A DNA stretch of 64,000 nucleotides from Candidatus Accumulibacter aalborgensis (GTDB lineage: Bacteria; Pseudomonadota; Gammaproteobacteria; Burkholderiales; Rhodocyclaceae). Both the position numbers and the translations under genes were made by a program. The notes beneath the pieces are model-generated. The model saw nothing but the letters and a program-made list of their open reading frames with translations, made no database searches and was not told the origin of the DNA. The number at the start of each line of letters is the position of its first letter. The first letter of the stretch is position 1. The DNA is taken from assembly GCF_900089955.1 (NCBI RefSeq), contig NZ_FLQX01000035.1, positions 124,001 to 188,000 of the forward strand, given 5' to 3'. This document shows positions 312-22,159 of this stretch, one piece after another.

Positions 312-725
312 ATGTTCGGAAATGCACGTAACGCGATTTCAGCGTATCAGAAGGTCGAGGTTGACCTGGCCATCGAAGTCGCCGACCCGCACCGACTGGT
401 CCTGTTGCTCTTCGCCGGCGCGCAGGCGGCGATCGGCAAGGCGCGCGCCGCCATGGAGCAGCAACAGATTGCCGCCAAAGGGGAAGCCGTTTCCAAAGCC
501 ATCGATATCATCGCCAACGGCCTCAGGGTGAGCCTGGACCTGGAAAAAGGTGGCGAGATCGCCGAGCGGCTCGATGCGCTCTATGAGTACCTGGTGCTGC
601 GCCTACTGCGCGCCAACCTGAACAACGACCTGCGCGCGCTGGAAGAAGTTTCGGGTTTGCTCGAAGAGATTCATGGCGCCTGGCGAGCGATTGCACCCGG
701 CGCGCGGCAACAGGCCAGCGGATGA
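312..725 (+). CDS. fliS: Flagellin export chaperone FliS
   Basis: The 137-residue product has the FliS length and opening (MFGNARNAISAYQKVEVD), followed by the helical core with ADPHRLVLLLFAGA and the conserved stretch LRVSLDLEKGGEIAERLDAL. FliS binds the C-terminus of unfolded flagellin in the cytoplasm and stops premature polymerisation before export. A clean AGGAG ribosome site lies just upstream of the ATG. The stop overlaps the start of the next gene as ATGA, indicating translational coupling within a fliD-fliS-fliT-fliK unit. Confidence 0.95.
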   Translation: MFGNARNAISAYQKVEVDLAIEVADPHRLVLLLFAGAQAAIGKARAAMEQQQIAAKGEAVSKAIDIIANGLRVSLDLEKGGEIAERLDALYEYLVLRLLRANLNNDLRALEEVSGLLEEIHGAWRAIAPGARQQASG

Positions 726-1024
726 GCGAGTCTCTGGTCGCGCTCGAGGAACTGTTGGCGCTGTCAGAAGCGATGGTCAGCGCGGCAGCGGCCGAAGACT
801 GGGAGAATCTGGCCAGCCGCGAAGCGGAACGTCGCGCCCTGGCAGACCGTCTACCGGCCGATCTGACGGCCAGCCTCGCGGCAACCGCGCAGCCGCGCGC
901 GCGCCTCCTGATCGCCGCTTGCCAGCGCTGTGAGGCAAGCATTCGCCCGTTGGTCGAGGCTCGCCTGGACGATCTGCGCGTCGTTCTGCGCGCCGTGCGC
1001 GGCCCAGCGCTGCCGCTGCAATGA
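722..1024 (+). CDS. fliT: FliT-like flagellar chaperone
   Basis: This small, alanine- and leucine-rich, almost wholly helical protein (100 residues) has the size and position of FliT. FliT is the export chaperone for the cap protein FliD and in enterobacteria also restrains FlhDC. Sequence conservation in this family is low, so the call rests on helical character, length and location directly after fliS. It overlaps fliS by four bases (ATGA) and overlaps the next gene in the same way. Confidence 0.75.
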   Translation: MSESLVALEELLALSEAMVSAAAAEDWENLASREAERRALADRLPADLTASLAATAQPRARLLIAACQRCEASIRPLVEARLDDLRVVLRAVRGPALPLQ

Positions 1025-2316
1025 TCAGCGTCGACCTCGCCAACCGCCTGCAACCGGGCGCCGACCCGGCTTTGCGGCCGGCTTTGCCGGCCCAGGAGAT
1101 CACCGACAAACTGTCCGGGCTGGTTGCCGGGCAGAGGCTGCTGGCACAAATCGAGTCGCTGATGCCCAATGGCAGCTACCGCGCACTGATCAACCAGCGT
1201 AGCGTCACCCTCGCCCTGCCTTTTGCCGCCAAGACGGGCGACTCGATCGAACTCGAGGTCACCGAGAGCGACGGCAAGCTGACCCTGGCCGTCGTGGCAC
1301 GCGAGGCAGCAGGGGCCGGGAAGGCGGGCAACGAATCGGCCACCACCAGCTTGAGCCGCACCGGACAACTGATCAGCAATCTGCTCGTGGGTAATCGCGA
1401 CGCCAAAGGTGGACCTGCAGCATTGCCGCTGAACGGTAACCAGCCGATTGCGGCCGCGCCACCGACCAGCGCACAGGCCCTGCAACCGCTGCTGGAACAG
1501 GCGATCACGCAGAGCGGCATGTTTTACGAAGCGCATCAGGCGGAATGGGTCGAGGGCCGTTACAGCAAGGAACAGTTGCTGCAGGAACCGCAAGGCAGGC
1601 TGGCCCCGCAGGTACCGACCCAGGAACTCCCGGCCCCGCCGGGATCCCCGGCGGCTGGCGCAGCGCGCAGCATGGCCAGTGCAGTCCTTGACGGAGCACC
1701 GATGCCGATGAAGTTCGCCGAGGAGAATACCGCGCCGATGCCGATCAAGTTCGCCGACGCGAATGCCGCCACGATCCAGCCTGGCCAGGTCGACCAACCC
1801 GTCGCCCCGCAGGCACAGGCACTCGTCCGGCCAGGTGCGATCCCCGACAACGCGCCGGTGCCGATCAAGTCCACCGAGGCGAATACCGGTACCATCCAGC
1901 GTGGCCAGGTGGTCGATCAACCCGTCGCCCCGCAGGCACAGGCGATCGTTCAGCAGCAACTCGAAGCTTTCGCGACGCAGAGTTTTTCCTGGCAAGGACA
2001 GGTCTGGCCCGGTCAGCAAATGGAGTGGCAGATCGACGAACCGAACGGGCACCGCGAAAATGGCGCTGGCGAGAGCAGCGAGAACAGCGAAAGGTGGCAG
2101 ACGCGACTACGTCTGACGCTGCCGACGCTTGGCGAGGTCGATGCGCGACTGCATATCCAGGGCAAGCAGATCACGCTGGCCGTAATGGCCACCGACGCCG
2201 ACACGCGTGCGCTGTTGCGTAGCGACTCCGCCAGCCTGCGCAGTCAGCTCGAACAGGCCGGACTGGACCTCTCGTCACTCGGCGTCACTGCGCCACAGGA
2301 GAGCCAGCCTTCGTAG
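1021..2316 (+). CDS. fliK: FliK-like flagellar hook-length control protein
   Basis: The 431-residue product has a variable, proline- and glutamine-rich N-terminal part and a compact C-terminal domain from about residue 350. That domain contains WQTRLRLTLPTLGEVDARL and HIQGKQITLAVMATDADTR, typical of the FliK C-terminal domain (Flg_hook) that contacts FlhB to switch export from hook to filament substrates. The middle carries imperfect tandem units built around APMPIK..NA.TIQ.GQV.QPVAPQAQA (about residues 225-310), as expected for a molecular ruler whose length can evolve by repeat gain. The start overlaps fliT as ATGA. Confidence 0.85.
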   Translation: MISVDLANRLQPGADPALRPALPAQEITDKLSGLVAGQRLLAQIESLMPNGSYRALINQRSVTLALPFAAKTGDSIELEVTESDGKLTLAVVAREAAGAGKAGNESATTSLSRTGQLISNLLVGNRDAKGGPAALPLNGNQPIAAAPPTSAQALQPLLEQAITQSGMFYEAHQAEWVEGRYSKEQLLQEPQGRLAPQVPTQELPAPPGSPAAGAARSMASAVLDGAPMPMKFAEENTAPMPIKFADANAATIQPGQVDQPVAPQAQALVRPGAIPDNAPVPIKSTEANTGTIQRGQVVDQPVAPQAQAIVQQQLEAFATQSFSWQGQVWPGQQMEWQIDEPNGHRENGAGESSENSERWQTRLRLTLPTLGEVDARLHIQGKQITLAVMATDADTRALLRSDSASLRSQLEQAGLDLSSLGVTAPQESQPS

Positions 2317-2410: not shown

Positions 2411-2454
2411 ACCTAGGGAACTTAAGCTTCGCGGGATGAAACGATGAAACTGGA

Positions 2455-2739: not shown

Positions 2740-2792
2740 GGGTTACAGCATACGCCACTTGACGGCCCACCCGCAACCGGCAGCAATTCTCA

Positions 2793-3221
2793 TTGCGACC
2801 CATTGCAGGTGATAACCCTGAACAGCGCTATGCGGCAAAATGGCGGTTGGCCAGGCCGCTCTACGAACGTCACTGGGATAAACAGCGCATCATCGACAGG
2901 TTCAGCGTCATCGACTGGCTGATGCGGCTGCCGACCGAGCTGGAGCAACGCCTGTTGCAGGAAGTCTGCACCCTGGAAAGGAACCTCAGTATGCCCTACG
3001 TCACATCTGCCGAACGCTTCGGAATTGAAAGGGGCCTGCAACAAGGTGGCCAGAAGCAAGGCGAAGCCGCGCTCCTCCAGCGCCAACTCGCCCGTCGATT
3101 CGGCCCACTGTCAGATGCAGGCGCTGCCCGATTGGCGAGTGCCAGTATCGACCAACTGGCAACCTGGGCGAGAAAGGTGCTCGATGCCGAATCGTTGGAC
3201 AACGTCCTTGATCCACAGTAA
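2793..3221 (+). pseudogene. Truncated Rpn-family (DUF4351) nuclease/transposase-like gene, 3' part only
   Basis: The frame encodes 142 residues that resemble only the C-terminal half of Rpn/YhgA-like proteins: KWRLARPLYERHWDKQRIID, then FSVIDWLMRLPTELEQRL, MPYVTSAERFGIERGLQQG and a final DUF4351-type helical region ending SLDNVLDPQ. The N-terminal PD-(D/E)XK nuclease domain is missing. The only in-frame start is a TTG at 2793 with a TGA upstream at 2760-2762, so I regard this as a deleted remnant rather than a short gene. It sits between the flagellar genes and the giant glycosyltransferase and may mark an insertion or deletion boundary. Confidence 0.7.
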
Positions 3222-3234
3222 GTCCACGCAAGGG

Positions 3235-6200
3235 ATGGCTCCCTCAGTCACGCTCGACGAGGCCCTTGCCCAGGCGCTGGCGACAGCGCTCGCCTGCCAA
3301 GCTGCCGGCTGCTTGTGCGAAGCCGAGCAACTCTATCGAGCCATCGTCCAGGCGCGGCCCGATCACCCGCAAGCGAACCACCAACTCGGCCTGCTCGAAG
3401 TCCAGCGGCAGCAGCCTGCTGCTGGTCTGGCGCACTTCCTCGCGGCAGTGGAAGGGAGCCCGGAATCAAGTCAATACTGGCTGAGCTACATCGATGCCCT
3501 GCTTCTCGCGGGCCAGACGGACACGGCACAACAGGTCCTCGCGCTCGGCCGGCAGCATGGTCTGGCCGGGGAGGCCCTGGACTCATTGGTAAAACGTTTG
3601 ACCGATAGTAAGGCAGAGAGACCTTCCGGCAAGACCGCAGAGTCTAGGCCAGCCAAGGCGAGCAAAAAAGCATTTAGGAAAATGACTGTCGGCCGCAACG
3701 CGAAGCCAAGCACTCAGGAAGAGAGTGCGCTCGTCGGACTGTTCAACATCGGCAGATACAGCGAGGGAGAGTCCCTCGCTCGTGCACTGACCGAGCGCTA
3801 CCCTGATCATGGTTTTGGCTGGAAAGTGCTCGGCGCGATGCTCACGTTGCAGGGGCGCGATACGGAAGCGCTGCCAGCCATGCGGCACGCGGCACGACTG
3901 CTGCCACGCGATGAGCAAGTCCAGAGCAATCTGGGCCTGGTGTTGGCCGAAATGGGGCAACTGTCCGACGCCGAAGCCTGCCATCGGCGAGCACTGAAAA
4001 TCAGGCGGGACTTCCCCGAAGCGCATTACAACTTGGGCAACGTCCTCAGCTTGCGGGGACTGCACAGGGAAGCGGAAACCAGTTATCGAAGCGCAGTGGC
4101 TCTAAAGCCTGACTTTTCCCTCGCACACTGCCAACTCGGCAACGTTCTCAGGGACGAGGGCCGTCTTGCAGAAGCGGAAGCCGCTTGCCGAAGGGCGCTG
4201 ACGCTTCAGCCGGAACTGTCCGAAGCACACAATAACCTGGGAACAATCCTCAAGGCGCAAGGCCGTCTCGACGAAGCCGAAAGCAGTTACCGACGAGCGC
4301 TGGCCATCAAGCCGGATCAAGCCGAGATCCACAACAACCTCGGGGAGATGTTGAGAGAACTGGGCCGGCTGACCGAAGCGGAGAACGCATTGCGCCGTGC
4401 CCTGGAATGTAAGCCGGATCTTGCCGTGGCGTACTCCAACCTCGGCAACACTCTTGCGACCCAAGGCCGTTTCGCCGAGGCGGAAGCCGCTTGTCGCCAG
4501 GCGCTGAGCTACAAACCGGATCTTCCCGAGGCACTCGCCATCCTGGGCTTGGCGCTTGGTGGCCAAGAACGACTCAGCGAAGCTGAAGCCAGCTTCCGCC
4601 GCGTGCTGAAATACCAACCGGATTTTGCTGAAGCTCATCATAACCTTGGCCACATCCTCCGGGCTCAGGGACGATTGAGCGAAGCTGAAGCCAGTTTTCG
4701 CCGTACTCTGGAACTTCAGCCCAACCTCGCTGCTGCGTTTCACAATCTTGGCGTGACCCTGACTGAACAGGGCCGATACGCCGAAGCCGAGACAGCCTGT
4801 CGGCAATCACTGACGATCGCAGACGACCCTGTAGTGCTTAGCGCCTTGCTTTTCTGCCTGAGTCACAACGAAGCCATCGATGCGGAGGCGCTGTTTGCCG
4901 AGCACTGTCGGTTTGGCGAGCAGTTTGAAGCCCCCCTGCGCGCTGACTGGCCGCGGCACCCGAACCGCAAAGACCCGGATCGTTGTCTGCAGATCGGTTT
5001 TGTTTCCGCTGATTTGCGCAGCCACGCGGTTGCCAACTTCATCGAGCCGGTCCTGGCAGAACTGGCGAAATACCGGCAATTATCGCTGCACGCCTACGCC
5101 AACCACGCCGTCGAAGATCACGTCACGCAGCGTTTGCGCGAGCACGTCGCTCACTGGCATCCGGTGGCCGGGATGTCGGAATCGGCGCTCGCCGAGGCCA
5201 TCCGCGATGACGCCATTGACATCCTGATCGACCTGAGCGGCCATACCGCCCACCATCGGCTGCTGACCTTTGCTCGCAAACCGGCACCGATCCAGGCAAG
5301 CTGGATCGGCTACCCCGGCACCACCGGCCTGCCGGCCATGGACTACTATCTGGCCGATCGCTTCCTGCTGCCCGCCGGCGAATTCGACAGCCAGTTCACC
5401 GAGAAAATCGTCCGCCTGCCGGCCGGCGCGCCCTTCCTGCCGTTCGCCGGCGCACCGCCAGTGGGTCCGCTACCCGCTCTGAGCCAGGGGCATATCACCT
5501 TTGGCAGCTTCAACCGACCGACCAAGATCAGCCCCGCGATGGTCGCTCTCTGGTCACAGTTGCTGACCGCCCTGCCCAATTCCCGGATGCTGCTCGGCGC
5601 GATGCCGCAGGAAGGGCAAGCCGACCACCTGATCGACGACTTCGCGCGCCACGGCATCAGTCGGGAACGATTGAGCTTCCATCCGCGTTGCGACATGCAA
5701 GGCTATCTCGAATTGCATCAACAGGTGGACATCTGTCTCGATACCTTTCCCTACGCCGGCGGAACGACGACTTTTCACGCCTTGTGGATGGGGGTACCGA
5801 CGCTGACGCTGGCCGGCCGTACCATGCCCGGCCGAACAGGTGCGGCGATCCTGGGTCAACTCGGACTGGGAGCCTTCATCAGCCACAATGCCAATGAATT
5901 CGTCGCTCAAGGCATCGCCTGTACCGCGGACCTCGCGGCTCTAGCCAGGCTACGGGCCGAACTGCGCGAGCGTCTGGGTCAATCGGCGATGGGTCAGCCC
6001 AACCTCATCGCCGCCGGCCTCGAACGAGCTCTGCGCATCATGTGGCAACGCTGGTGCGACGAGCTGCCAGCAGAAACATTCGAGGTGCGCGCGCAGGAAG
6101 CGCGACACGGGTTCAATGGTGAGCAGAATATGCCCCCCGCCGTGACACTCGACGAGGCACTTACCCAGGCGTTCGAGAAGGCCGTCGCGTACCAAAATTC

Positions 6201-9200
6201 GGGCCAATTGAGCGAAGCCGAGCAGCTTTATCAGGCGATCCTGAAGACGCAACCGAATCACCCGCGGGCGAATCACCAACTCGGTCTGCTGGAGTTACAG
6301 CGGCAGCAGCCGGCCACTGGCCTGCCACACTTGATGGCGGCACTTGAAGCGTGTCCGGAATTCAGCCAATACTGGCTGAGCGCACTTGATGCTCTCCTTC
6401 TGCTGGGCCAGGTGGACACTGCCCGGCAGATGCTCGTGCTTGGCCAGCAGCATGGCCTGACAGGGGATGCTGTCGATTCCCTGGTACTGCGCCTGGTCGA
6501 GAATGGGCCAGAGCGAGAGCCACCTATCGCAAAAACCGCAATGCCCTTGCCAGGCAAGCCGGGCAACAAGCCCTCCACCAAGCGGACTGCCGCCGGTCGC
6601 AGCCAGGAATCCAGCGCTGACGAAATGAAGACCCTTCTGGCATTATTCCACGCCGGTCACTACAGCGAGGGAGAAGCCCTCGCCCGCGCACAAACCGAGC
6701 GCTACCCGCGGCAGGGTTTCGGCTGGAAAGTGCTCGGCGCGATGCTCAAATCGCAAGGGCGCGATATGGAAGCGCTGGAAGCCATGCTGCAAGCAGCAAG
6801 ACTGCTGCCTCGCGATGAGCAAGTCCAGGACAATCTGGGCCAGGTACTGGCCGATATGGGACAACTGTCGGAGGCCGAAACTTGTCATCGGCGGGCGTTA
6901 AAAATCAGGCGTGACTTCCCCGAAGCACATTACAACTTGGGCAACGTCCTCAACGCACAGGGACACCTCCAGGAAGCCGTAGCCAGTTATCGACGGGCAG
7001 TAGTTCTGAAGCCGGGGTTTCCCCTCGCACACTACAATCTCGGCAACGCCCTCATGAACCAGAACCGCCTTTCCGAAGCGGAAACCGCTTACCGGAGGAC
7101 GCTGGCACTCCAGCCGGACCTAGTCGAAGCGCACAACAATCTGGGTACAATCCTCAAGGTGAAAGGCCGTCTCGACGAAGCCGAAACAAGTTACCGACGA
7201 GCACTGACCCTCAAGCCATATCAGGCCGTGACCCATTACAACCTCGGCAACATACTCAGCAGCCAAAACCGTCTCGCAGAAGCCGAAGCTGCGTGGCGCA
7301 CTGCTCTCGACTGCAAACCCGACTTTCCCGAGGTCCTTGTCGTCCTGGGTTCAGCCCTCAACGAACAGGAACGACTCTGTGAAGCAGAAGCCTGCTTCCG
7401 CCGCTCGCTGGAACTTCAGCCCGACCAGGCTGACGCGCTTCTCAGTCTCGGCGTTGCCCTTAATAAACTTGGCCGATACTCTGAAGCCGAGGCAGCCTGC
7501 CGGCAATCCATGGTGATCCAACCCGATTACGACCTGGCGCATAGCGCTTTACTTTTCTGCCTGAGTCATAACGAAGCCATCGATGCAGATGTACTGTTTG
7601 CCGAGCACTGTCGGTTTGGCGAGCAGTTTGAAGCCCCCCTGCGCGCTAACTGGCCGCTGCATCCCAACCGCAAAGACCCGGATCGTTGCCTGCAGATCGG
7701 TTTTGTTTCCGCCGATTTGCGCCACCATGCGGTCGCCAACTTCATCGAACCGGTCCTGGCAGAACTGGCGAAATACCGGCAATTATCGCTGCACGCCTAT
7801 GCCAACCACTCGCTCGAAGATCACGTCACGCAGCGCCTGCGCGAGCATGTTGCTCACTGGCATCCGGTGGCCGGGATGTCGGAATTGGCGCTCGCCGAGG
7901 CTATCAGCGATGACGCCATTGACATCCTGATCGACCTGAGCGGCCATACCGCCCACCATCGGCTGCTGACCTTTGCCCGCAAACCGGCACCGATCCAGGC
8001 GAGCTGGATCGGCTACCCCGGCACCACCGGCCTGCAGGCCATGGACTACTATCTGGCCGATCGCTTCCTGCTGCCCGTCGGCGAGTTCGACGGCCAGTTC
8101 ACCGAGAAAATCGTTCGCCTGCCGGCCGGCGCACCCTTCCTGCCATTCGCCGGCGCACCGCCGGTGGGCCCGCTACCCGCTCTGAGCCAGAGGCATATCA
8201 CCTTTGGCAGCTTCAACCGGATGACCAAGATCAGCCCCTCGGTGGTCGCTCTCTGGTCACAGTTGCTGACCGCCCTGCCCAATTCCCGAATATTGCTCGG
8301 CGCGATGCCGCCTGAAGGGCAGGTCGAGCACCTGATCGACGACTTCGCGCACCACGGCGTCACCCGGGAACGATTGAGCTTCCATCCGCGTTGCGACATG
8401 CAAGGCTATCTCGAATTGCATCAACAGGTGGACATCTGTCTCGATACCTTTCCCTACGCCGGCGGAACGACGACTTTTCACGCCTTGTGGATGGGGGTAC
8501 CGACGCTGACGCTGGCCGGCCGTACCATGCCCGGCCGAACAGGTGCGGCGATTCTCAGCCATGTCGGACTGACCGCCTTCATCGCCCGCAACGCCAGGGA
8601 ATTCGTCGCCCAGGGCATCGCCTGCAGCGCGGACCTCGCCACTCTGGCCAGGCTGCGGGCCGAACTGCGCGAGCGTCTGGGTCAATCGGCGATGGGCCAG
8701 CCCGACCTCATCGCCGCCGGCCTCGAACGCGCTCTGCGCCTCATGTGGCAACGCTGGTGCGACAAGCTCCCGGCAGAAACATTCGAGGTGCGCGCGCCGG
8801 AACTGCAACAAGGCCTCAGCGCCGCGCAGAACACGCCTGCCGTTGTGATGCGCGAAGAAGCCACTGCTCGATCGTTCGATAAAGTGCCGACCTGCAACCG
8901 TGTGGGGCCGGTGGATGCCTTTGCACCGCACCTGGCCGACAGCGTGCCGGATCAACCGGCTAGCGCCCTCTCTCCCCGGCCAGTCAGACCAGACAACAAG
9001 CTCGCCGGGAAAAGGGCTACCGGTCGAAGCAAGGAGCCTGCCGCTGAGGAAGTCAATACTCTCGTAACCCTGTTCCATGCCGGCCACTACCGGGAGGGAG
9101 AAGTCCTCGCCCGTGCACTGACCGAGCGTTTCCCTGAGCATGGTTTCGGCTGGAAAGTGCTCGGCGCGATGCTCAAGTCGCAGGGTCGCGATACGGAAGC

Positions 9201-11034
9201 GCTGCCTGCCATGCGACACGCGGCAAGACTGCTGCCACGCGATGCGCAAGTCCAGAGCAATCTGGGCCTGGTGCTGGCCGAGATGGACCAACTGTCCGAG
9301 GCCGAAGCCTGTCACCGGCATGCCCTGAAAATCAAACCGAACTTCCCGGAAGCGCATTACAACCTGGGCAACGTCCTCCACGCGCAGAGACTGCCCAGGG
9401 ACGCAGAAGCCTGTTATCGACACGCACTGACCCTTGAACCGGATTACGCCAAGGCTCACAACAACCTTGGAGCAATGCTCAGAGAACTGGGCCGACTGAC
9501 CGAAGCGGAGCGCGCGTTGCGCCGTGCTCTGGAGTGCAGCCCCGATTTTGCCAAGGCCCATGCCAACCTCGGCAGCACCCTCGGCGACCAGGGCCGCCTC
9601 GCCGAAGCAGAGACCTGCTTCCGACGTGCACTGCGAATCGAGCCTGACCTGGTTGACGCGTCCGTGAATCTCGCCCTGACTCTGACCCAATCGGGCCGAT
9701 ACGCTGAAGCCGAGGCAGCCAGTCGGCAAGCCCTGCAGATCCAGCCCGATTACGTCCTGGCGTATAGCAACCTGCTTTTCTATCTCAGTCACGACGAAGC
9801 TGTTGATGCGGCAGAATTGTTTGCCGAACACTGTCGGTTTGGTGAGCAGTTTGAAGCCCCTCTGCGCGCTGATTGGCCGCGGCACCCGAATCGCAAAGAC
9901 CCGGATCGTTGCCTGCAGATCGGTGTTGTTTCGGCCGATCTGTACCACCACGCCGTCGCCAGCTTCATCGAACCGGTGTTGGCTGAACTGGCGAAGTATC
10001 CTCAATTATCATTGCACGCTTACTCCAACTGCGCCGTCGAAGACCACGTCACGCAACGGATACGGGGACATGTGGCGCACTGGCATGCAATTGCTGGAAT
10101 GACCGACGCTGGGGTCGCCGAAAAGATCCGCGAAGATGGAATCGATATCCTGATCGATCTGAATGGCCACACCGGCCATCATCGGTTGCTGGCCTTTGCC
10201 CGCAAACCGGCTCCGATACAGGTCACCTGGATAGGCTATCCCGGCACCACCGGGCTGCAGGCCATGGACTACTACCTGAGCGATCCCTTTTTCCTGCCGC
10301 GCGGCGAATTTGACGGGCAGTTCACCGAGAAGATCGTCTACCTGCCCTGCTGCTCACCCTTTCAGCCCTTCGCGGACGCGCCGCTGATTGGCCCGCTACC
10401 CGCCCTGAGCCAGGGCCATGTCACTTTTGGCAGTTTCAATCGCCCGACCAAGATCAGTGCCTCGGTGATCGCCCTCTGGTCACGACTACTGGCCGCGGTG
10501 CCCGATTCCCGGATGCTGCTCGGTGCGATGCCGCCGGATGGACGAGTGGAGCAACTGATCGACGACTTTGCACGCCATGGCATTGGCAATGACCGCCTGA
10601 GTTTCCACCCACGATCCACCATGAGCAACTATCTCGACCTTCATCAGCGGGTGGACATCTGCCTCGATACCTTCCCCTATAACGGAGGAACCACCACTTT
10701 CCACGCCTTGTGGATGGGCGTGCCGACGCTGACCCTGGCCGGCGGTACCTTTCCTGGGCAAACCGGGGCGGGGATTCTGGGCCACGTTGGACTGCCAGCC
10801 TTCATCACCCGCAATGCCACCGAATTTGTCGAGCGCGGCGCCACCCTGGCGGCCGACCTTCCCCTTCTGGCCGGACTGCGTAACGAGTTACGCGAGCGAC
10901 TGGCTCGATCGGCCTTCGGCGAGCCAGTCCTCATCGCCGCAGCCCTCGAACGCGCCCTGCGTGGCATGTGGCAACGCTGGTGTCACGACCTGCCAGCCGA
11001 GTCATTCGAAGTGCGCCGGCAGGATTTACCTTGA
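3235..11034 (+). CDS. Giant triple-module TPR / GT41 (SPINDLY/OGT-like) O-glycosyltransferase
   Basis: The product is 2599 residues and consists of three consecutive copies of a tetratricopeptide array followed by a GT41-type catalytic domain. Approximate catalytic regions are residues 555-952, 1456-1852 and 2198-2597. I count about 11, 9 and 7 core TPR units, and modules 1 and 2 also carry an extra N-terminal TPR cap starting (A/P)P(S/A)VTLDEAL. Each catalytic domain keeps the early His (H597, H1498, H2239), the GHT..HHRLL and PAPIQ..WIGYPGT motifs, the Lys in NR.TKIS (K764, K1665, K2406, matching the OGT Lys that binds the nucleotide) and CLDTFPY.GGTTTFHALWMG. All three therefore look potentially active. 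I chose ATG 3235 because module 2 begins with the same sequence; an upstream TTG at 3025 would run through the neighbouring frame. By family it should transfer a sugar to Ser/Thr of a protein in the cytoplasm; position after fliDSTK suggests flagellin, which is inference. Confidence 0.9.
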   Translation: MAPSVTLDEALAQALATALACQAAGCLCEAEQLYRAIVQARPDHPQANHQLGLLEVQRQQPAAGLAHFLAAVEGSPESSQYWLSYIDALLLAGQTDTAQQVLALGRQHGLAGEALDSLVKRLTDSKAERPSGKTAESRPAKASKKAFRKMTVGRNAKPSTQEESALVGLFNIGRYSEGESLARALTERYPDHGFGWKVLGAMLTLQGRDTEALPAMRHAARLLPRDEQVQSNLGLVLAEMGQLSDAEACHRRALKIRRDFPEAHYNLGNVLSLRGLHREAETSYRSAVALKPDFSLAHCQLGNVLRDEGRLAEAEAACRRALTLQPELSEAHNNLGTILKAQGRLDEAESSYRRALAIKPDQAEIHNNLGEMLRELGRLTEAENALRRALECKPDLAVAYSNLGNTLATQGRFAEAEAACRQALSYKPDLPEALAILGLALGGQERLSEAEASFRRVLKYQPDFAEAHHNLGHILRAQGRLSEAEASFRRTLELQPNLAAAFHNLGVTLTEQGRYAEAETACRQSLTIADDPVVLSALLFCLSHNEAIDAEALFAEHCRFGEQFEAPLRADWPRHPNRKDPDRCLQIGFVSADLRSHAVANFIEPVLAELAKYRQLSLHAYANHAVEDHVTQRLREHVAHWHPVAGMSESALAEAIRDDAIDILIDLSGHTAHHRLLTFARKPAPIQASWIGYPGTTGLPAMDYYLADRFLLPAGEFDSQFTEKIVRLPAGAPFLPFAGAPPVGPLPALSQGHITFGSFNRPTKISPAMVALWSQLLTALPNSRMLLGAMPQEGQADHLIDDFARHGISRERLSFHPRCDMQGYLELHQQVDICLDTFPYAGGTTTFHALWMGVPTLTLAGRTMPGRTGAAILGQLGLGAFISHNANEFVAQGIACTADLAALARLRAELRERLGQSAMGQPNLIAAGLERALRIMWQRWCDELPAETFEVRAQEARHGFNGEQNMPPAVTLDEALTQAFEKAVAYQNSGQLSEAEQLYQAILKTQPNHPRANHQLGLLELQRQQPATGLPHLMAALEACPEFSQYWLSALDALLLLGQVDTARQMLVLGQQHGLTGDAVDSLVLRLVENGPEREPPIAKTAMPLPGKPGNKPSTKRTAAGRSQESSADEMKTLLALFHAGHYSEGEALARAQTERYPRQGFGWKVLGAMLKSQGRDMEALEAMLQAARLLPRDEQVQDNLGQVLADMGQLSEAETCHRRALKIRRDFPEAHYNLGNVLNAQGHLQEAVASYRRAVVLKPGFPLAHYNLGNALMNQNRLSEAETAYRRTLALQPDLVEAHNNLGTILKVKGRLDEAETSYRRALTLKPYQAVTHYNLGNILSSQNRLAEAEAAWRTALDCKPDFPEVLVVLGSALNEQERLCEAEACFRRSLELQPDQADALLSLGVALNKLGRYSEAEAACRQSMVIQPDYDLAHSALLFCLSHNEAIDADVLFAEHCRFGEQFEAPLRANWPLHPNRKDPDRCLQIGFVSADLRHHAVANFIEPVLAELAKYRQLSLHAYANHSLEDHVTQRLREHVAHWHPVAGMSELALAEAISDDAIDILIDLSGHTAHHRLLTFARKPAPIQASWIGYPGTTGLQAMDYYLADRFLLPVGEFDGQFTEKIVRLPAGAPFLPFAGAPPVGPLPALSQRHITFGSFNRMTKISPSVVALWSQLLTALPNSRILLGAMPPEGQVEHLIDDFAHHGVTRERLSFHPRCDMQGYLELHQQVDICLDTFPYAGGTTTFHALWMGVPTLTLAGRTMPGRTGAAILSHVGLTAFIARNAREFVAQGIACSADLATLARLRAELRERLGQSAMGQPDLIAAGLERALRLMWQRWCDKLPAETFEVRAPELQQGLSAAQNTPAVVMREEATARSFDKVPTCNRVGPVDAFAPHLADSVPDQPASALSPRPVRPDNKLAGKRATGRSKEPAAEEVNTLVTLFHAGHYREGEVLARALTERFPEHGFGWKVLGAMLKSQGRDTEALPAMRHAARLLPRDAQVQSNLGLVLAEMDQLSEAEACHRHALKIKPNFPEAHYNLGNVLHAQRLPRDAEACYRHALTLEPDYAKAHNNLGAMLRELGRLTEAERALRRALECSPDFAKAHANLGSTLGDQGRLAEAETCFRRALRIEPDLVDASVNLALTLTQSGRYAEAEAASRQALQIQPDYVLAYSNLLFYLSHDEAVDAAELFAEHCRFGEQFEAPLRADWPRHPNRKDPDRCLQIGVVSADLYHHAVASFIEPVLAELAKYPQLSLHAYSNCAVEDHVTQRIRGHVAHWHAIAGMTDAGVAEKIREDGIDILIDLNGHTGHHRLLAFARKPAPIQVTWIGYPGTTGLQAMDYYLSDPFFLPRGEFDGQFTEKIVYLPCCSPFQPFADAPLIGPLPALSQGHVTFGSFNRPTKISASVIALWSRLLAAVPDSRMLLGAMPPDGRVEQLIDDFARHGIGNDRLSFHPRSTMSNYLDLHQRVDICLDTFPYNGGTTTFHALWMGVPTLTLAGGTFPGQTGAGILGHVGLPAFITRNATEFVERGATLAADLPLLAGLRNELRERLARSAFGEPVLIAAALERALRGMWQRWCHDLPAESFEVRRQDLP
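5662..5849 (+). repeat. 188-bp exact direct repeat, copy 1 (module 1)
   Basis: This stretch of the first catalytic domain is identical base for base to 8365-8552 in the second module, 2703 bases downstream (901 codons). Bases flanking the block differ (t/c on the left, c/t on the right). Such perfect identity, including all third codon positions, points to recent duplication or gene conversion between modules. It could also trap a short-read assembly. Confidence 0.95.
8365..8552 (+). repeat. 188-bp exact direct repeat, copy 2 (module 2)
   Basis: This is the second copy of the block at 5662-5849. The equivalent stretch of module 3 (from about 10588) is clearly diverged in both third positions and residues, so the exchange appears to involve modules 1 and 2 only. 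Confidence 0.95.
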
Positions 11035-11092
11035 ACACCCAGGCGACCAGGATGATCAAACATTTACAAAAGTCTTCCGCAGGCTGTTATTG

Positions 11093-11773
11093 ATGGCCCG
11101 CGAAACACTCATCATCTACGGCAATGGGCAGATAGCCCGCATGCTCCTTCATTTTGCCCGAAGCCAGTTTGACGTCGTCGCCTTCACCGTGGACCGCTCG
11201 GTTCGGCAAGAGGCGGAAATCGAGACGGTGCCCGTGATTCCCTTTGAGGACATTGCCGACCATTTTTCGCCGAATGCGCACCAGATGATCATCGCAGTCG
11301 GCTACCGGGAAATGAACGCGCTTCGCGCCCGGAAACATGCCGAGGGCCGAGCCAAGGGATACTGCTTCACCAACTACATCCATCCCTCGGTGGTATGGCA
11401 CCCCAACCTGATCGCGGGCGAAAACAATGTCATTCTCGACCATGTGGCCATCCACCCCTACACCCGCCTGGGCAACAGCAATTTCGTCTGCAGCAATACA
11501 TCGATTGGACACGGCTGCACGATCGGCGACCACTGCTGGATCAACTCGGGCGTCTCGATCGGCGGCGAAACCCGGATCGGCGATGCCTGCTTCCTGGGAA
11601 TCAATGCCGCCATCGGCGACAACATCGTGATGGGGGATCGCTGTTACATTGGTGCAAATACGCTGATCTCGCGTTCTACCCAAGCGGATGAAGTGTACAT
11701 TTCCGCCGGCGGCGAACTTTTTCCCCTGCGCAGCCATGCCTTTCTGCAATTCATTTCCCCTCCCACGCCTTGA
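11093..11773 (+). CDS. NeuD/PglD-like sugar O- or N-acyltransferase (left-handed beta-helix)
   Basis: From ATG 11093 the product is 226 residues; the longer frame upstream only overlaps the glycosyltransferase gene. The N-terminal part is a small Rossmann-like domain (LIIYGNGQIARMLLHFA), and residues from about 100 onward are hexapeptide repeats (NTSIGHGCTIGDHCWINSG, VSIGGETRIGDACFLGINA) that form a left-handed beta-helix. The His in SIGHGC fits the catalytic base of PglD-type acetyltransferases, which acylate an amino group on a nucleotide sugar using acetyl-CoA. Downstream it meets the acyl-AMP ligase frame with almost no gap, so it is probably the first modifying enzyme of the glycan operon. 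The acyl donor might instead be the carrier protein encoded at 14450. Confidence 0.85.
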   Translation: MARETLIIYGNGQIARMLLHFARSQFDVVAFTVDRSVRQEAEIETVPVIPFEDIADHFSPNAHQMIIAVGYREMNALRARKHAEGRAKGYCFTNYIHPSVVWHPNLIAGENNVILDHVAIHPYTRLGNSNFVCSNTSIGHGCTIGDHCWINSGVSIGGETRIGDACFLGINAAIGDNIVMGDRCYIGANTLISRSTQADEVYISAGGELFPLRSHAFLQFISPPTP

Positions 11774-11778
11774 TCCCG

Positions 11779-13329
11779 ATGCTCGTCAACTCCCGACTCT
11801 CACCCATCTATCGTCGATTTCAGCAATCTGCAGAGAGAAATCCGGATAAATTGGCCCTCGTGGTCGGTGAGTCCCGCCAGACTTACCGCGAGTTGCTGAA
11901 AGAGGTGGATGCCCTGGCGGACGGACTTGCCAACGCCGGGCTGCGCAGTGGTGAGCACATCGGCGTCCTGCTTCCCAACTGTGCCGAATTCGTCCTGCTG
12001 CTTCTGGCCGGCGCCCGCCTCGGAGCCGTCATCGTGCCCCAGAGTCTGGGGCTTTCCCCTGAAGCGCTGGCCAATACCTTTAGAACGGCCGCTATCCGAC
12101 ACCTCGTCGCGTGGGCAGGAGCCGCCGACAATCTCGACCCACAGCTTCTTGCCGCCAAGGGCATATTGCTGTCCGTCGGCGGAGCGGTCGAAGGCTGGCT
12201 GGGCCTAGCGGAAATCCTTGCTTCCGGCAGGACAAACCCCCACTCCCCCCCGCTTCTTGGCGAAGACCGGCCTTACCTGCTGGTACTCACCTCCGGCGCC
12301 ACGGGCGACCCGAAGCCGATCGTCCTGAGTCAGCACACCAAGTGTCTGCGCGCCGAAGCGGCGGCCGGACTGTACGGCGTCAAGGCCGACGACGTTATCA
12401 TGGCCGCTACCCCCCTCTACCATTCCCTCGCGCAGCGCCTGGCCCTGATGTCCCTGATTTCCGGAGGCACGAGCGTCGTGATGGCGCATTTTTCACCGGC
12501 GGCCTGGATCGAGAACGTGTCACGCTACCAAGTCAGCTTTTCCATCGCGGTGTCCTCGCAGCTGAAGCAGATTCTGAATCACCTGGTCAGCACAGGGGAA
12601 TCCCTGCCCTCGCTTCGCTGCCTGGTATCGTCTTCGGCTGTGCTTGACGATGAAACCAAGAGGTACCTGCTCGCTCGCCTGCAATGCGAGTTCCATGAGT
12701 GCTACGGGGCTTCTGAGATCGCCATTGCCACCAACCTCACGCCGACGGCGGCTCGGCGTAAGCTGGGTTCCGTGGGCACGGCCGTTCCCGGAACCGAGGT
12801 CATGATCCTCGGCGACGACGGCAAGCAGGCGCCGACCGGAACAGCCGGGGAGATCCTCTGCCGGACGCCGATGCTCTACAGCGGTTACTACGGGCAAGCG
12901 GAGACCACCACCGCCGCCAACTGGGGCGACTTCTTCCGCACGGGCGACCTGGGCACGATGGACGACGAAGGTTTTCTCTACTTTCGCGGCCGAATCAAGG
13001 ACATCATCATCACGGGCGGCGTCAACGTATATCCCAAGGATATCGAGGATGTCATCGCCAGCCATCCGGAGGTCAGGGAATGCGCCGCCATTCCTCTTCT
13101 CGACGACGATATGGGTGAAGTCGCCGGGGTGGTCATCGCTTTCAATGACCCCGAAAATCCGCCCAGCCTGCGCGACATCCAGCGCCTGTGCATGCAACGC
13201 CTCGGTGACTTTCAGCAACCTCGTCGCTTCTTCGTCGTTGCCGACTTGCCGAAGAACGGTATGGGTAAAGTGGACAAACCGACCTTGCGGCAGACCTATT
13301 GCCGACCCATGACGCCGGGACAGGCATGA
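11779..13329 (+). CDS. Acyl-AMP ligase (AMP-dependent synthetase/ligase, ANL family)
   Basis: The product is about 516 residues from ATG 11779; an in-frame TTG at 11770 overlaps the preceding stop and is the alternative start. ANL-family motifs are present in order: the P-loop LTSGATGDPKPIVLSQ, YGASE, FFRTGDLG, FRGRIKDIIITGGVNVYP and the C-terminal catalytic Lys in PKNGMGKVDK. The enzyme should activate a carboxylic acid as an acyl-adenylate and pass it to a thiol. A free-standing acyl carrier protein lies two genes downstream, so that protein, rather than CoA, may be the acceptor. The substrate cannot be read from the sequence. The stop overlaps the next start as ATGA. Confidence 0.85.
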   Translation: MLVNSRLSPIYRRFQQSAERNPDKLALVVGESRQTYRELLKEVDALADGLANAGLRSGEHIGVLLPNCAEFVLLLLAGARLGAVIVPQSLGLSPEALANTFRTAAIRHLVAWAGAADNLDPQLLAAKGILLSVGGAVEGWLGLAEILASGRTNPHSPPLLGEDRPYLLVLTSGATGDPKPIVLSQHTKCLRAEAAAGLYGVKADDVIMAATPLYHSLAQRLALMSLISGGTSVVMAHFSPAAWIENVSRYQVSFSIAVSSQLKQILNHLVSTGESLPSLRCLVSSSAVLDDETKRYLLARLQCEFHECYGASEIAIATNLTPTAARRKLGSVGTAVPGTEVMILGDDGKQAPTGTAGEILCRTPMLYSGYYGQAETTTAANWGDFFRTGDLGTMDDEGFLYFRGRIKDIIITGGVNVYPKDIEDVIASHPEVRECAAIPLLDDDMGEVAGVVIAFNDPENPPSLRDIQRLCMQRLGDFQQPRRFFVVADLPKNGMGKVDKPTLRQTYCRPMTPGQA

Positions 13330-14453
13330 TGCATCCCGTTCTTCCTCCGTTGCGTCTGGGCTTCATCGGCGGATCGATCCACTCGGCAGTCGGCCACACC
13401 CATTTCAACTCGAGCCGTCTGGACGGTCATTTCCGGGTCGATTGCGGCTGTTTCAGCCGCACAGCCAGCGACAATGAGGACACCGCCCGCACCTACGGTA
13501 TTGCCACCGAACGTACCCATGCTTCATGGCACGAACTTCTGGAGCGGGAACGCGAGGCGCTTGACGCGGTGGTGGTGCTGGTGCCTACTCCCGGTCACCG
13601 CGAAATCGTCATCACCGCTCTCGACGCCGGCTACGCGGTCATCTGTGAAAAGGCGCTGGCGACCTCCAGCACTGAATGCCGGGCCATCGGTGAGGCCGTC
13701 GCCCGCAACCGCAGTTTTCTCGCCGTGACCTACAACTATTCCGGCTATCCGATGGTGCGTGAACTACGCCGCCTCATCGCCGAGGGTCACTTGGGTCACC
13801 TCCAGCAGATCCATATCGAGATGCCGCAGGAGGGCTTCCTGCGTCAAGGGGCAACGCCGCAGGCATGGCGCCTGCAGGACTACGCGGTTCCCACCGTATC
13901 GCTCGATCTGGGAGTACACGTACATCACCTCATTCACTTCGTGACCGGTGGCAAGCGCCCCCTTGATGTCGTCGGAGATCAGAGCACCTATGGCCAGTTC
14001 GGCGACATCATCGACAACGTCTCCTTCCTCGCCCGTTACGAGGGCGAACTGCGGGTTCAGTGCTGGTACGGCAAGACGGCTCTCGGTTACCGCAACGGCC
14101 TGCGCATTCGGGTATTCGGCAGCCAGGCCAGTGCCGAATGGTTGCAGATGCAACCTGAAGATCTGTGGCTGAGCCGGGCCGATGGCAGCCGTATCATTCT
14201 CGACCGTGGTTCCGGCGATGCCAATCTGGCACGCCAACCGCGTTATAACCGCTTCAAGCCCGGCCACCCCTCCGGTTTCATCGAAGCCTTTGCCAACCTT
14301 TACACCGACATCGCCGGTCACCTGCGCCATTTCCGGTCCGGCGAACCCGTGCCCAACGATTTCGTCTACAGCGCCCGCGAGTCGGAGGATGGACTGCTCT
14401 TTCTGGAAGCTGTCGCCCGTTCCGCCGATACAATGGCCTGGCAATCCGCATGA
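13326..14453 (+). CDS. Gfo/Idh/MocA-family NAD(P)-dependent sugar oxidoreductase
   Basis: The 375-residue product starts at ATG 13326, which overlaps the preceding stop as ATGA; a TTG at 13299 is less likely. The N-terminal Rossmann fold shows LRLGFIGGSIHSAVG, DAVVVLVPTPGHREIV and the family lysine in VICEKALATSSTECR. The C-terminal sheet domain includes LDLGVHVHHLIHF. Members oxidise or reduce a sugar hydroxyl or keto group, commonly on UDP- or GDP-sugars before transamination, which fits the DegT aminotransferase encoded at the end of the island. Substrate is not determinable. Confidence 0.87.
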   Translation: MMHPVLPPLRLGFIGGSIHSAVGHTHFNSSRLDGHFRVDCGCFSRTASDNEDTARTYGIATERTHASWHELLEREREALDAVVVLVPTPGHREIVITALDAGYAVICEKALATSSTECRAIGEAVARNRSFLAVTYNYSGYPMVRELRRLIAEGHLGHLQQIHIEMPQEGFLRQGATPQAWRLQDYAVPTVSLDLGVHVHHLIHFVTGGKRPLDVVGDQSTYGQFGDIIDNVSFLARYEGELRVQCWYGKTALGYRNGLRIRVFGSQASAEWLQMQPEDLWLSRADGSRIILDRGSGDANLARQPRYNRFKPGHPSGFIEAFANLYTDIAGHLRHFRSGEPVPNDFVYSARESEDGLLFLEAVARSADTMAWQSA

Positions 14454-14734: not shown

Positions 14735-14844
14735 TCTTGAGCCGATATCACCGACCGTTCGTCACTGGTCCCGACGAGAACGCTCCAGAAAGACTGATGA
14801 GCCGGGATTACCGCGTGATGGCAACATCGCCAGGAGCAAATGAG

Positions 14845-17247
14845 ATGACGGACATCACCCGCCCCCCTTCGGTTGAGCCCATCCCGATTCAGGCAGAGCA
14901 TATTCTGCATTTTTCGGTAATTATCCCCGCCTACAATGCTGCAGAGGATATTCGACACTGCCTGGCTAGCGTTTTTGTCCAGGACTTCGATCCAGCAGGC
15001 TATGAAGTCCTGCTGGTCGATGATTGCTCCACAGATGCCACCCTTGACATTGCGTCAGGAATCGCCCGCGGCCATGGCAACCTGCAGGTGATGAGCACGC
15101 TGAAGAATAGTGGCCCCGGTATCGCGAGAAATATCGGCGTCAGCCAGGCCCGCGGCATGTGGATCATATTTCTCGACAGCGATGACACCCTCGCCCGCAA
15201 CCTCTTCCGGAATTTAAAAGAATTCATGGATAACCAGGCGAGCGATCTTGATGCGATTGGCTACAACTGGGCTTTCGCCAGCGCCGACAATGGGGCCAGA
15301 TTGTTACCGTCTGCCGGAAGACGTGATCAGAACCCGCTGGGTCTGATCAAGACAGATCTGTTGAAGCAATACCTTTGCCTGCACATGGATGGATCCGTCA
15401 TCTACACCGCAGTACGCAGGGAACTCATAACCCAAAACCACCTTTGTTTCGCCGACGGTTATCATGAAGATGTGGATTACATTTTCATGGTGTACTGGTG
15501 TGCCAGGCGCGTCGGCTATCTTGACGAGGTGCTCTATTACAAGGGATGGCGACCGGGCTCCATCGTCAACACCATTTCCCGCCAGCATGTTCAGGGATTC
15601 ATGCGCGCCTGGGCGCGGATCGCCGCCTTCATTCAAACGCACGATGAAGGCATTTTTGGCTCATTGCATTCGTTCTACCGGACGGGATTGGTGGGCGCCG
15701 TTGCCACCCGCGCAAGAGAAATATACCGCAAAGCCGGTTCGCTCGATCAGGCGACGGAACTGTATACGGAATTGTATGAATGCCTTCACAAGGAGTTCGG
15801 ATCAATCCCCATTGAAGCGGGCGAAATTCCAAACACCCAATACGGGCAGATGACAGCCAATTTCCTCACCGTCTTGCAAGGCCGGAACCTGTCGAACCTG
15901 GAGAAAGGCGCCGCCATTAGCCGGTTCATGGGGGAGGCCATGGACAAGAGCTGGAGTTGCATCGATTTGCATCACTCACTTTTTCTGGCCCCCGATCAGA
16001 TACGCACGTGCTGTAAACGCTTCTTCTTGGAAGGCGCCATGCGCGGTGATGTCGTCCTGTTGAACATTCCACCCGACAGCCCCATCACGATCACACCGGA
16101 ATCTATTCGTAAAGCGAAGCAAGGGCTTCACCACGAGATAAACAGTGGCGGCAAGTCCCCTTGCGAAGGATGCCCATTCCTGGAGTTCAAAGAGTGGGGC
16201 TCGCTCGACAAACTGGAATTGAGGTACCTGTCATTCGAGTATCACTCGGTGTGCAACCTCAAGTGCAGCTACTGCAGTGACATCTACTTCGGTGGCAAGC
16301 AACCCCATTACGACGTGAAGCATCTGGTGAATGATTTGGGCGAATGCCATGCTCTGGACAACTGCTCCACGGTGGTGTGGGGCGGCGGTGAGCCGGTGGT
16401 GGACAAAGATTTCGACGCTCTGCTGGAAAACATGGTGCGGCGTCTACCCCATGCCAGCCAGCGCGTCCTGACTAATTCCGTCAAGCACAACAAGACGGTA
16501 CAACGCCTGCTGGCTGAAAACAGGGTAAGCGTGACCACCAGTGTAGATGCAGGAACAGAAACAACCTATGTCAAGGTACGTGGCATGCCGAGTTTGAACA
16601 AAGCCATGGCAAACCTGAGACAATATGCTGAAGCCAACTCCAGCCAGGTCACAATCAAATATATATTCACCGATGACAATCGTTCGCTGGAGGAAGTCAG
16701 GGCTTTTGTTGCGCTGGTCACCGATTACAAGCTTATCGATTGCAACTTCCAGATCAGTTGCGATTTCAAGCACGAAACGCTGACTCTGGATACGGTCGTT
16801 TCGATGATAGTCATGTATGGCCTGCTGATCGATGCCGGATGCCGGCTGGCGTATTTCGATGATCTTCTGCGCCAACGTCTGAGCAAGGGACACGCCGAAT
16901 CGGCAGAGGTTATTCAGCACACCTTGAAGGGACTCGGACTCGGCCACACACTGGCGGACAAGTCCGCCTACGAGTCGGTCGCCATCTGGGGTGCGGGTTG
17001 GCAATCCAGATACCTGATAGAGAAGTCTGCATTTTTCCGGGACGTCAGAGTCGCGTATTTCATTGATTCCCGGCCCTCGGTAATTGGCAAAGACTTCATG
17101 GGCTACGGTATTTTTGGTCCGGATACCCTGCTGAAAACTGACATCCCCGTCGTGATATCTGCCGTGCAGAATCTGCCTTTGATCCATCAGTCTTTCGTGA
17201 CGCTCGGATTAGACAAGTCGCGACTGATCAATAAACTGATCCTTTAG
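14845..17247 (+). CDS. Fusion protein: GT2 glycosyltransferase, radical SAM/SPASM-like domain and C-terminal Rossmann-like domain
   Basis: I chose ATG 14845 because AGGAG lies eight bases before it; earlier in-frame starts exist at 14797 (ATG) and 14737 (TTG). The 800-residue product begins with a GT2 domain (about 23-250: FSVIIPAYNAAEDI, EVLLVDDCSTDAT and the metal-binding LDSDD). A linker carries CEGCPF, then a radical SAM domain has the 4Fe-4S motif CNLKCSYC at about residue 470 and VVWGGGEP. The final 90 residues (from about 711, VAIWGAGWQSRYLIE) resemble a nucleotide-binding fold. This would combine sugar transfer and radical chemistry on one chain. The region is AT-richer than most neighbours. 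Function is unknown beyond the domains. Confidence 0.85.
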   Translation: MTDITRPPSVEPIPIQAEHILHFSVIIPAYNAAEDIRHCLASVFVQDFDPAGYEVLLVDDCSTDATLDIASGIARGHGNLQVMSTLKNSGPGIARNIGVSQARGMWIIFLDSDDTLARNLFRNLKEFMDNQASDLDAIGYNWAFASADNGARLLPSAGRRDQNPLGLIKTDLLKQYLCLHMDGSVIYTAVRRELITQNHLCFADGYHEDVDYIFMVYWCARRVGYLDEVLYYKGWRPGSIVNTISRQHVQGFMRAWARIAAFIQTHDEGIFGSLHSFYRTGLVGAVATRAREIYRKAGSLDQATELYTELYECLHKEFGSIPIEAGEIPNTQYGQMTANFLTVLQGRNLSNLEKGAAISRFMGEAMDKSWSCIDLHHSLFLAPDQIRTCCKRFFLEGAMRGDVVLLNIPPDSPITITPESIRKAKQGLHHEINSGGKSPCEGCPFLEFKEWGSLDKLELRYLSFEYHSVCNLKCSYCSDIYFGGKQPHYDVKHLVNDLGECHALDNCSTVVWGGGEPVVDKDFDALLENMVRRLPHASQRVLTNSVKHNKTVQRLLAENRVSVTTSVDAGTETTYVKVRGMPSLNKAMANLRQYAEANSSQVTIKYIFTDDNRSLEEVRAFVALVTDYKLIDCNFQISCDFKHETLTLDTVVSMIVMYGLLIDAGCRLAYFDDLLRQRLSKGHAESAEVIQHTLKGLGLGHTLADKSAYESVAIWGAGWQSRYLIEKSAFFRDVRVAYFIDSRPSVIGKDFMGYGIFGPDTLLKTDIPVVISAVQNLPLIHQSFVTLGLDKSRLINKLIL

Positions 17248-20339: not shown

Positions 20340-20547
20340 TTTTGCGCCTAGCTGCGGAGAAGAAAAAATTCGATGGTAAGCGGTCCGCAAAAAGTCTTTC
20401 GTGTGTCGAGGCGCGCATTTTCTAGGCGGCGGGCCTCTGAAGATCGAAGAACTTATCCGAGAGCGCTTATCCTGCAGCATCAGCACCCGTTGGCGACCGG
20501 CGATCCGCCTATTCCGCGCCCAAGGCCGAAAGCGGGACAATGTCAAT

Positions 20548-21660: not shown

Positions 21661-22159
21661 ACGTTCCCAGGCGGTGGGTGGCAACCGAAGTGCCCCATTA
21701 TGCACCGCATGACGAAAATTGTGCTCCTCGAGTTGTTCCGCACGACCGAGGTTCGTCTTGACCTAGCGTGGCAGAAGCGCGCGCCTTTGCTTCGCGCCAT
21801 CATGGTGACCTTGTTCGCAGGTGCGAAGCACATCCACCGTGACCGATGCGCTTCCCTTCGGTCAGCACATGCTACGCACCGGAAATACTCAGGCGTCGTG
21901 TGAGAGGTGACAAAAGACGCTCGGCGCCGTAACATCCGGCCATGAAGCTATTTCGGTGGCGTCCAGGGAAGAACGAAACCCGATACCTCAGCAAGGGTGG
22001 CCACGATGGAATCCATTCGATGGCCTCTCGGGGAAGAAAGCGCATTGCAGACCATTGCAAGCCACCTTGCGGTTCCGCGCGGTCCCGAATTCCGCGTTCG
22101 CTGCATCCGGACCGCGGCCACGCGACGAAGGACGGGAACAAGGAGGAGGAGAGCCAGCC
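21661..22159. other. Gene-poor interval at the right edge of the glycosylation island
   Basis: I see no convincing gene here. Open frames on both strands lack family features and none has a good ribosome site except the one ending the interval. The right end carries the AGGAGGAGGAG site used by the hicB remnant. The interval probably holds the promoter of the aminotransferase (reverse) and otherwise looks like a degraded junction. Confidence 0.6.

Follow-up and report, generated by a model that had tools for sequence, protein, structure and literature searches.

FlmG of Caulobacter crescentus is, by analogy, the best functional precedent for the protein described here. FlmG is a 596-aa protein with a TPR part and a GT-B glycosyltransferase part that O-glycosylates flagellin in the cytoplasm (PMC7591256), a feature shared with the role proposed here. 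The likeness was judged by this TPR and GT-B architecture. FlmG has one module, whereas the protein encoded in our window has three.

Among solved structures, which were searched with catalytic domains 1 and 3, the best match to both was the Arabidopsis GT41 protein O-fucosyltransferase SPINDLY (SPY; 7y4i; PMC9715652), with E values of 1.7e-77 to domain 1 and 1.2e-73 to domain 3. The bacterial TPR-GT41 protein of Thermobaculum terrenum, TtOGT (5djs), matched domain 1 with an E value of 4.3e-73 and, according to the SPY study, was without O-GlcNAc activity in vitro (PMC9715652). SPY has one module and TtOGT is a 529-aa chain with one catalytic domain, in contrast to the three domains found here.

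The locus from Candidatus Accumulibacter aalborgensis bears on how TPR glycosyltransferases select and occupy numerous sites of a single substrate. It has single-module orthologues for direct comparison, so that one and three catalytic domains can be compared in the same operon place and with flagellins of nearly equal length. The explanation we prefer, with about even confidence, is a flagellin-modifying TPR-GT41 enzyme in which fused tandem duplicates, homogenised by conversion, act as a covalent concatemer. This cytoplasmic protein O-glycosyltransferase would modify flagellin before export. It would have arisen from the single-module flagellar-operon gene of the genus by tandem duplication and in-frame fusion, its catalytic parts being kept alike by gene conversion and its TPR arrays drifting in sequence and in how many repeats they hold. 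TPR clamps of unequal length would grip the middle domain of flagellin, and three equivalent active sites would put the same small sugar on several Ser/Thr sites. Three sites would be expected to improve site occupancy, and they might glycosylate processively, as a sequence-only reading of the locus had proposed.

Domain layout and assembly of the GT41 gene

The window, meaning the whole stretch of 64,000 nucleotides analysed here, encodes a three-module TPR-GT41 protein O-glycosyltransferase at 3235..11034 (+), identified by translation and Pfam. The frame translated into 2599 aa and a stop with zero internal stops, and upstream the frame stays open as far as a TTG at 3025. A Pfam search of the 2599-aa protein gave six stretches of PF13844 (Glyco_transf_41), that is, two halves of each of three domains, scoring 445.3 bits where the cut-off is 25; every half-domain lay above the curated cut-off, and TPR models covered much of the remainder. 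The sequence-only reading had assigned the gene to GT41 and seen three TPR arrays and three catalytic domains in one uninterrupted frame, and the translation and domain search agreed with it on both counts.

Every module has its TPRs before the GT41 domain, for which a GT-B fold is expected from the family. Module 1 (M1; residues 1-962; 3235..6120, +) comprises an N-terminal TPR block, a linker, ~10 TPRs, and catalytic domain 1 (residues 577-941; 4963..6057, +; H597, K764, Y840). Module 2 (M2; residues 963-1860; 6121..8814, +) repeats this order with ~8 TPRs and catalytic domain 2 (residues 1478-1842; 7666..8760, +; H1498, K1665, Y1741). Module 3 (M3; residues 1861-2599; 8815..11031, +) is without the first TPR block (equivalent to M1 residues 7-125) and has ~6 TPRs before catalytic domain 3 (residues 2219-2583; 9889..10983, +; H2239, K2406, Y2482). 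Core repeats were counted with a home-made TPR profile. The earlier description of three complete modules holds for the three catalytic domains behind TPR arrays, but is a little too strong for M3, with its missing block and short array. In module alignments, protein identity was 77% between M1 and M2 (891 aligned residues), 68% between M1 and M3 (731 aligned residues), and 68% between M2 and M3 (736 aligned residues), so chance is no issue for their likeness. The catalytic domains of M1 and M2 were 92% identical.

The unequal arrays bear on whether the fusion merely replaces or fixes an oligomer, with no added processivity. SPY forms dimers in solution, and the same state is described for human OGT (PMC9715652); SPY and TtOGT are the closest solved relatives by sequence, which is consistent with a covalent oligomer. 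However, M3 is one TPR block short and the arrays differ in length, and we regard this explanation as unlikely.

The genome is a draft of 181 contigs in which another TPR-GT41 gene is seemingly broken over two contig ends, so an assembler might have joined separate or collapsed genes. The longest exact match between modules, however, was only 188 bp, followed by one of 70 bp, and the locus lies in the middle of a 230,652-bp contig, which makes an artefact unlikely. One genome assembled as a single contig (G052) also has a GT41 frame with three domains, 2070 aa long. We rejected misassembly as the main explanation and consider it very improbable. The broken gene belongs to another subfamily (L010:2-841 and L011:2-1258; G000:C7 and C181).

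Neither a phage nor a plasmid origin was supported. Nine phage records were all below 60% identity, none covering 80%, and no viral contig was found. With catalytic domain 1 as the only query, 94 plasmid records were all below 60% identity, most frequently from Azospirillum (35) and Cereibacter (17).

Active sites and donor gate

The residues on which the sequence-only reading had based three active sites were found in all three domains. The key His residues H597, H1498, and H2239 align with SPY H495 and human H558. The nucleotide-binding Lys residues, correctly given as K764, K1665, and K2406, align with SPY K665 and with human OGT K842, the latter equivalence being set by adjacency to Y841 as in PMC9715652. 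The CLDTFPY.GGTTTFHALWMG loop was present in each catalytic domain. M1 to M3 also have all of the Asp, His, Lys, Tyr, and Thr at SPY positions 491, 495, 665, 744, and 748, and each keeps the Asn and Lys of the GSFN..K motif, which contains SPY K665. This conservation of key residue positions is consistent with three intact active-site pockets. The integrity is judged from sequence because the predicted structure of M3, built from an alignment of only four sequences (mean pLDDT 56.3), was good in the TPR part and poor in the catalytic part, which counts against our preferred explanation. One position differs from SPY: S496 is replaced by Ala in M1, M2, and M3, and S496A strongly lowers SPY activity (PMC9715652). 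We count this replacement, too, against the concatemer reading.

At the donor gate, all three modules have Tyr at the position of human OGT Cys917, like SPY Y744 and like TtOGT (PMC9715652). According to the same study, the small residue in human OGT suits UDP-GlcNAc, and Tyr at this position leaves little room for it (PMC9715652). The small residue typical of O-GlcNAc transferases is thus absent, and UDP-GlcNAc is disfavoured as the donor. 'OGT' is used here as a family name and makes no statement on the donor, since the gate Tyr leaves UDP-GlcNAc little room.

FlmG needs pseudaminic acid (PMC7591256), whereas a search of the window's genome (a draft with 100% estimated completeness) gave no match for NeuB. 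NeuB was present in 15 of the 28 genus genomes; among the 13 relatives with an orthologue of the GT41 gene, it was found in eight and not seen in five. We rejected a FlmG-like nonulosonic donor (pseudaminic or legionaminic acid) for this genome, such a donor being unlikely because no NeuB was found in the draft. As far as residues and gene content indicate, the protein would be a GT41 enzyme with a donor gate unlike that of O-GlcNAc transferases, with mixed likeness to SPY-type fucosyltransferases, and with no sign of a FlmG-type donor.

The modules could also divide labour, differing in acceptor site or donor and so placing different sugars or filling different sites. They have TPR arrays with unequal numbers of repeats and diverged sequences, and the surroundings of the M3 pocket differ from those of the other modules (PYN vs PYA, GGTFPGQ vs GRTMPGR). 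Three related proteins of another family have a Cys gate in the first module and Tyr in the rest. In the window protein, however, the gate is the same Tyr throughout and the catalytic domains of M1 and M2 are nearly identical, and we think such a division quite improbable.

Gene neighbourhood and flagellin

The gene order, all in one direction, is fliC-flaG-fliD-fliS-fliT-fliK-(orf)-(DUF4351)-GT41, and the order and direction suggest one operon. The upstream fliC encodes 595 aa with Flagellin_N and Flagellin_C. It is followed, after flaG and fliD, by genes for the flagellin chaperone FliS (312..725, +), the flagellar protein FliT (722..1024, +), and the hook-length control protein FliK (1021..2316, +). 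Between fliK and the GT41 gene lie an open frame with no Pfam match (2444-2812) and a DUF4351 protein gene (2793..3221, +). In the genus, fliS-fliT-fliK preceded the GT41 orthologue in 11 of 13 loci, the remaining two being cut by contig ends. Both genes could be located in 12 genus loci, and in every one the GT41 start lay 32-62 bp behind fliK; the two small frames (2444-3221) are therefore an addition in the window's genome. These genus genes occupy the same operon place as the window gene, but have one visible catalytic domain.

Flagellin had been named as a possible target in the sequence-only reading, and the context agrees: because the gene lies behind fliC, flaG, fliD, fliS, fliT, and fliK and is read in their direction, flagellin is the probable substrate of the three-module protein. 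The further suggestion that an unusually repetitive target calls for three sites fared less well. Flagellin has 595 aa here vs 581-584 aa in 11 relatives, and 155 Ser+Thr residues vs 136-148; these were the relatives whose fetched stretches contained a flagellin. Since both excesses are small, the argument gains little. Flagellin number does not stand out either: Flagellin_N matched twice in the window's genome, once strongly and once weakly (a match read as FlgL-like), and there were also two matches in 24 of the 27 other genus genomes, the other three having one. We rejected a longer or extra flagellin as the reason for three modules. The size and number of flagellins give little reason for three modules, which counts against the explanation that we prefer. 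The weaker FlgL-like match (G000:C94:99287-99700) lies in a 613-aa frame, compared with 441-572 aa in relatives.

A Maf-type transferase looks unlikely as a competing flagellin transferase: PF01973 had no match in the window's genome and matched two of the 28 genus genomes, in a search that included no control known to carry flagellar Maf and whose sensitivity is not proven.

Downstream, a frame with a hexapeptide acyltransferase similar to NeuD/PglB/VioB (TIGR03570, below cut-off) lies at 10787..11773 (+); the TTG listed as its start falls inside the GT41 gene and is provisional. Next come genes for an AMP-binding (AMP-forming) acyl ligase (11770..13329, +), a Gfo/Idh/MocA oxidoreductase (13299..14453, +), a protein with GT2 glycosyltransferase and radical SAM parts (14737..17247, +), and a methyltransferase (Methyltransf_24; 17259..18404, +). 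On the opposite strand are a B12-binding radical SAM protein (18459..20705, -) and a DegT-family sugar aminotransferase (20548..21705, -), whose best NCBIfam match was DesI (dTDP-4-dehydro-6-deoxyglucose aminotransferase), below cut-off. The acyltransferase, ligase, and oxidoreductase genes follow the GT41 gene in two of the 13 genus loci (G026, G018), and a DegT relative is within reach of it in two (G013 and, in part, G018). A Gallionella MAG (L072) has the order fliS, fliK, GT41, and then DegT, and on the megaplasmid of Cupriavidus metallidurans CH34 DegT comes directly after the GT41 gene. Because DegT and acyltransferase genes lie near this and related GT41 genes, an amino-sugar donor is plausible. 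UDP-GlcNAc would then not be the donor; a candidate is an N-acylated 4-amino-4,6-dideoxyhexose made through the neighbouring DegT and acyltransferase genes, a reading limited by the below-cut-off matches of both. The GT2-radical SAM fusion and the B12-radical SAM protein near the flagellar genes hint at an unusual, radically modified sugar.

Origin of the modules and concatenated GT41 proteins elsewhere

Among the 28 genus genomes, only that of the window showed more than one GT41 domain per frame. A complete catalytic domain was found in 12 of the 13 genus loci, scoring 616-685 bits to the module profile. Ten orthologous frames, each with one visible catalytic domain, measured 985-1219 aa between stops; the orthologues in G014 (518 aa) and G001 (514 aa) are fragments, and that in G002 is masked from mid-domain onward, so its module count covers the visible half. 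The Gallionella MAG was considered as a three-module relative and rejected, its protein having 806 aa and one catalytic domain. That orthologue (L072:9899-12319) carries an N-terminal TPR block at its C-terminus, as in a shrunken two-module protein.

M1, M2, and M3 grouped together with support of 96/97 in a 20-row catalytic-domain tree. In 16-row trees, from which the masked G002 sequence and three distant paralogues were left out, the support was 94/96 for protein and 89/92 for DNA at codon positions 1+2. A 62-row tree, with 24 hand-picked single-domain proteins and without the cut third module of G403, did not settle the placement of M3 among the genus orthologues. We favour a triplication within this lineage, including M3, for which the trees stop short of proof; an older origin of M3 is possible because of the 62-row result and because two of the three supports from the smaller trees carry no star.

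Divergence was uneven along the modules. Between M1 and M2, dS fell from 0.86 in the N-terminal TPR block to 0.50-0.64 over the core TPRs and to 0.15-0.16 over the catalytic halves, and between M1 and M3 it rose from 0.30 in the first TPR half to 0.74-0.82 over the catalytic halves. The catalytic domains of M1 and M2 look homogenised and the TPR parts older. We infer that gene conversion between neighbouring copies caused this mosaic, a reading that, like the trees and dN/dS, draws on three copies of one gene. Given the mosaic dS, the grouping of M1 with M2 in catalytic trees may reflect conversion and not birth order.

Junction 2 resembles junction 1 (AQNTPAVV vs EQNMPPAV), a likeness that suggests that fused tandem genes multiplied as a unit. 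Junction 1 retains a Met where M1 starts, an ATG at 6130..6132 (+; residue 966) with GGTGA 7 nt upstream, which is vestigial or a possible internal start. Initiation there would yield a separate M2-M3 protein as well. One short SD-like string is often expected by chance, though, and junction 2 has no Met at the matching place, and we rate a second product as improbable.

A plainer account is dosage or drift only, in which a near-neutral in-frame fusion of tandem copies left modules that act singly with no new property. Genes rich in repeats readily undergo in-frame tandem duplication, the gene of the relatives has one visible catalytic domain, and flagellin has changed little in length and number. 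However, the active-site residues are kept in all three modules, and dN/dS stayed between 0.09 and 0.61 in every region compared, which gives no sign that any module has escaped selection. Frames with two to four domains also recur in several lineages, with one three-domain orthologue common to three genomes, as described below. We hold dosage or drift to be a possible but rather doubtful explanation, and continue to prefer the covalent concatemer.

The sequence-only reading held that GT41 enzymes normally carry one catalytic domain. This was true of most frames seen, but the rarity it implied was too strong, as a profile count verified frames with two to four GT41 domains in at least nine other genomes. 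In searches at genus, family, order, and phylum level, among the matches listed, there were at least 14 such frames in 10 genomes including that of the window, with 39 modules by profile count. At least 13 of these frames come from nine other Pseudomonadota genomes (G052, G403, G571 with two, G587, G590 with two, G602, G609 with two, G612, and G616 with two). Three of the 14 reach a contig end in G403 or G616, and one reaches a contig end in G609. As in the window protein, these frames consist of TPR-GT41 modules with key residues kept in nearly all: His in 38 of 39 modules (Gln in module 2 of G403) and Lys in all 38 modules long enough to reach its position. The donor gate was Tyr in 34 modules, Cys in three, and Phe in one, with one module cut before the gate. 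Frames of 1751, 1697, and 2273 aa in G091, G055, and G339 were rejected as multi-domain candidates, each having one GT41 domain.

In the tree, the window's modules fell with the genus orthologues, far from the other multi-domain proteins, which belong to other subfamilies; the modules of G052 grouped by themselves, as did those of the two G616 proteins together. Because the modules of multi-domain proteins cluster separately, concatenation most likely arose several times. At the 13 other multi-domain loci, queries with FliC, FlaG, FliD, FliS, FliT, and FliK of this genome had no match in the stretches analysed, so the proteins there probably act on other substrates. This also counts against the explanation that we prefer.

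Concatenated GT41 is a recurring but little-described design. The literature listings and abstracts searched held no description of multi-domain GT41 proteins, which is weak evidence of absence as most subscription journals lie outside their coverage. We tentatively suggest, as a generalisation that may well prove wrong, that multi-module GT41 proteins are repeatedly evolved concatenated glycosyltransferases with two to four catalytic domains per chain, in which multiple active sites borne by one TPR scaffold glycosylate a secreted polymer subunit at many sites per binding event. Some members would mix donors through Cys and Tyr gates, and the window protein would be the flagellin-dedicated instance. 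Processivity stays a hypothesis, and the wider recurrence is the more interesting outcome. If the extra sites raise occupancy, concatenation would offer a simple design rule for engineering protein glycosylation; if they give no gain, the recurrence of fusions would need another explanation, such as fixed oligomers.

The orthologous three-domain protein is shared within one other genus, by the genomes G571, G590, and G609. In its three copies (L106:4419-11804, L109:312-7868, and L113:164-7681), the gate is Cys in module 1 and Tyr in modules 2 and 3, and these gates on one chain possibly accept different donors. The most GT41 domains seen in one frame were four, in L111:3253-14595 (G602, 3781 aa) and L115:1312-8961 (G616, at least 2550 aa).
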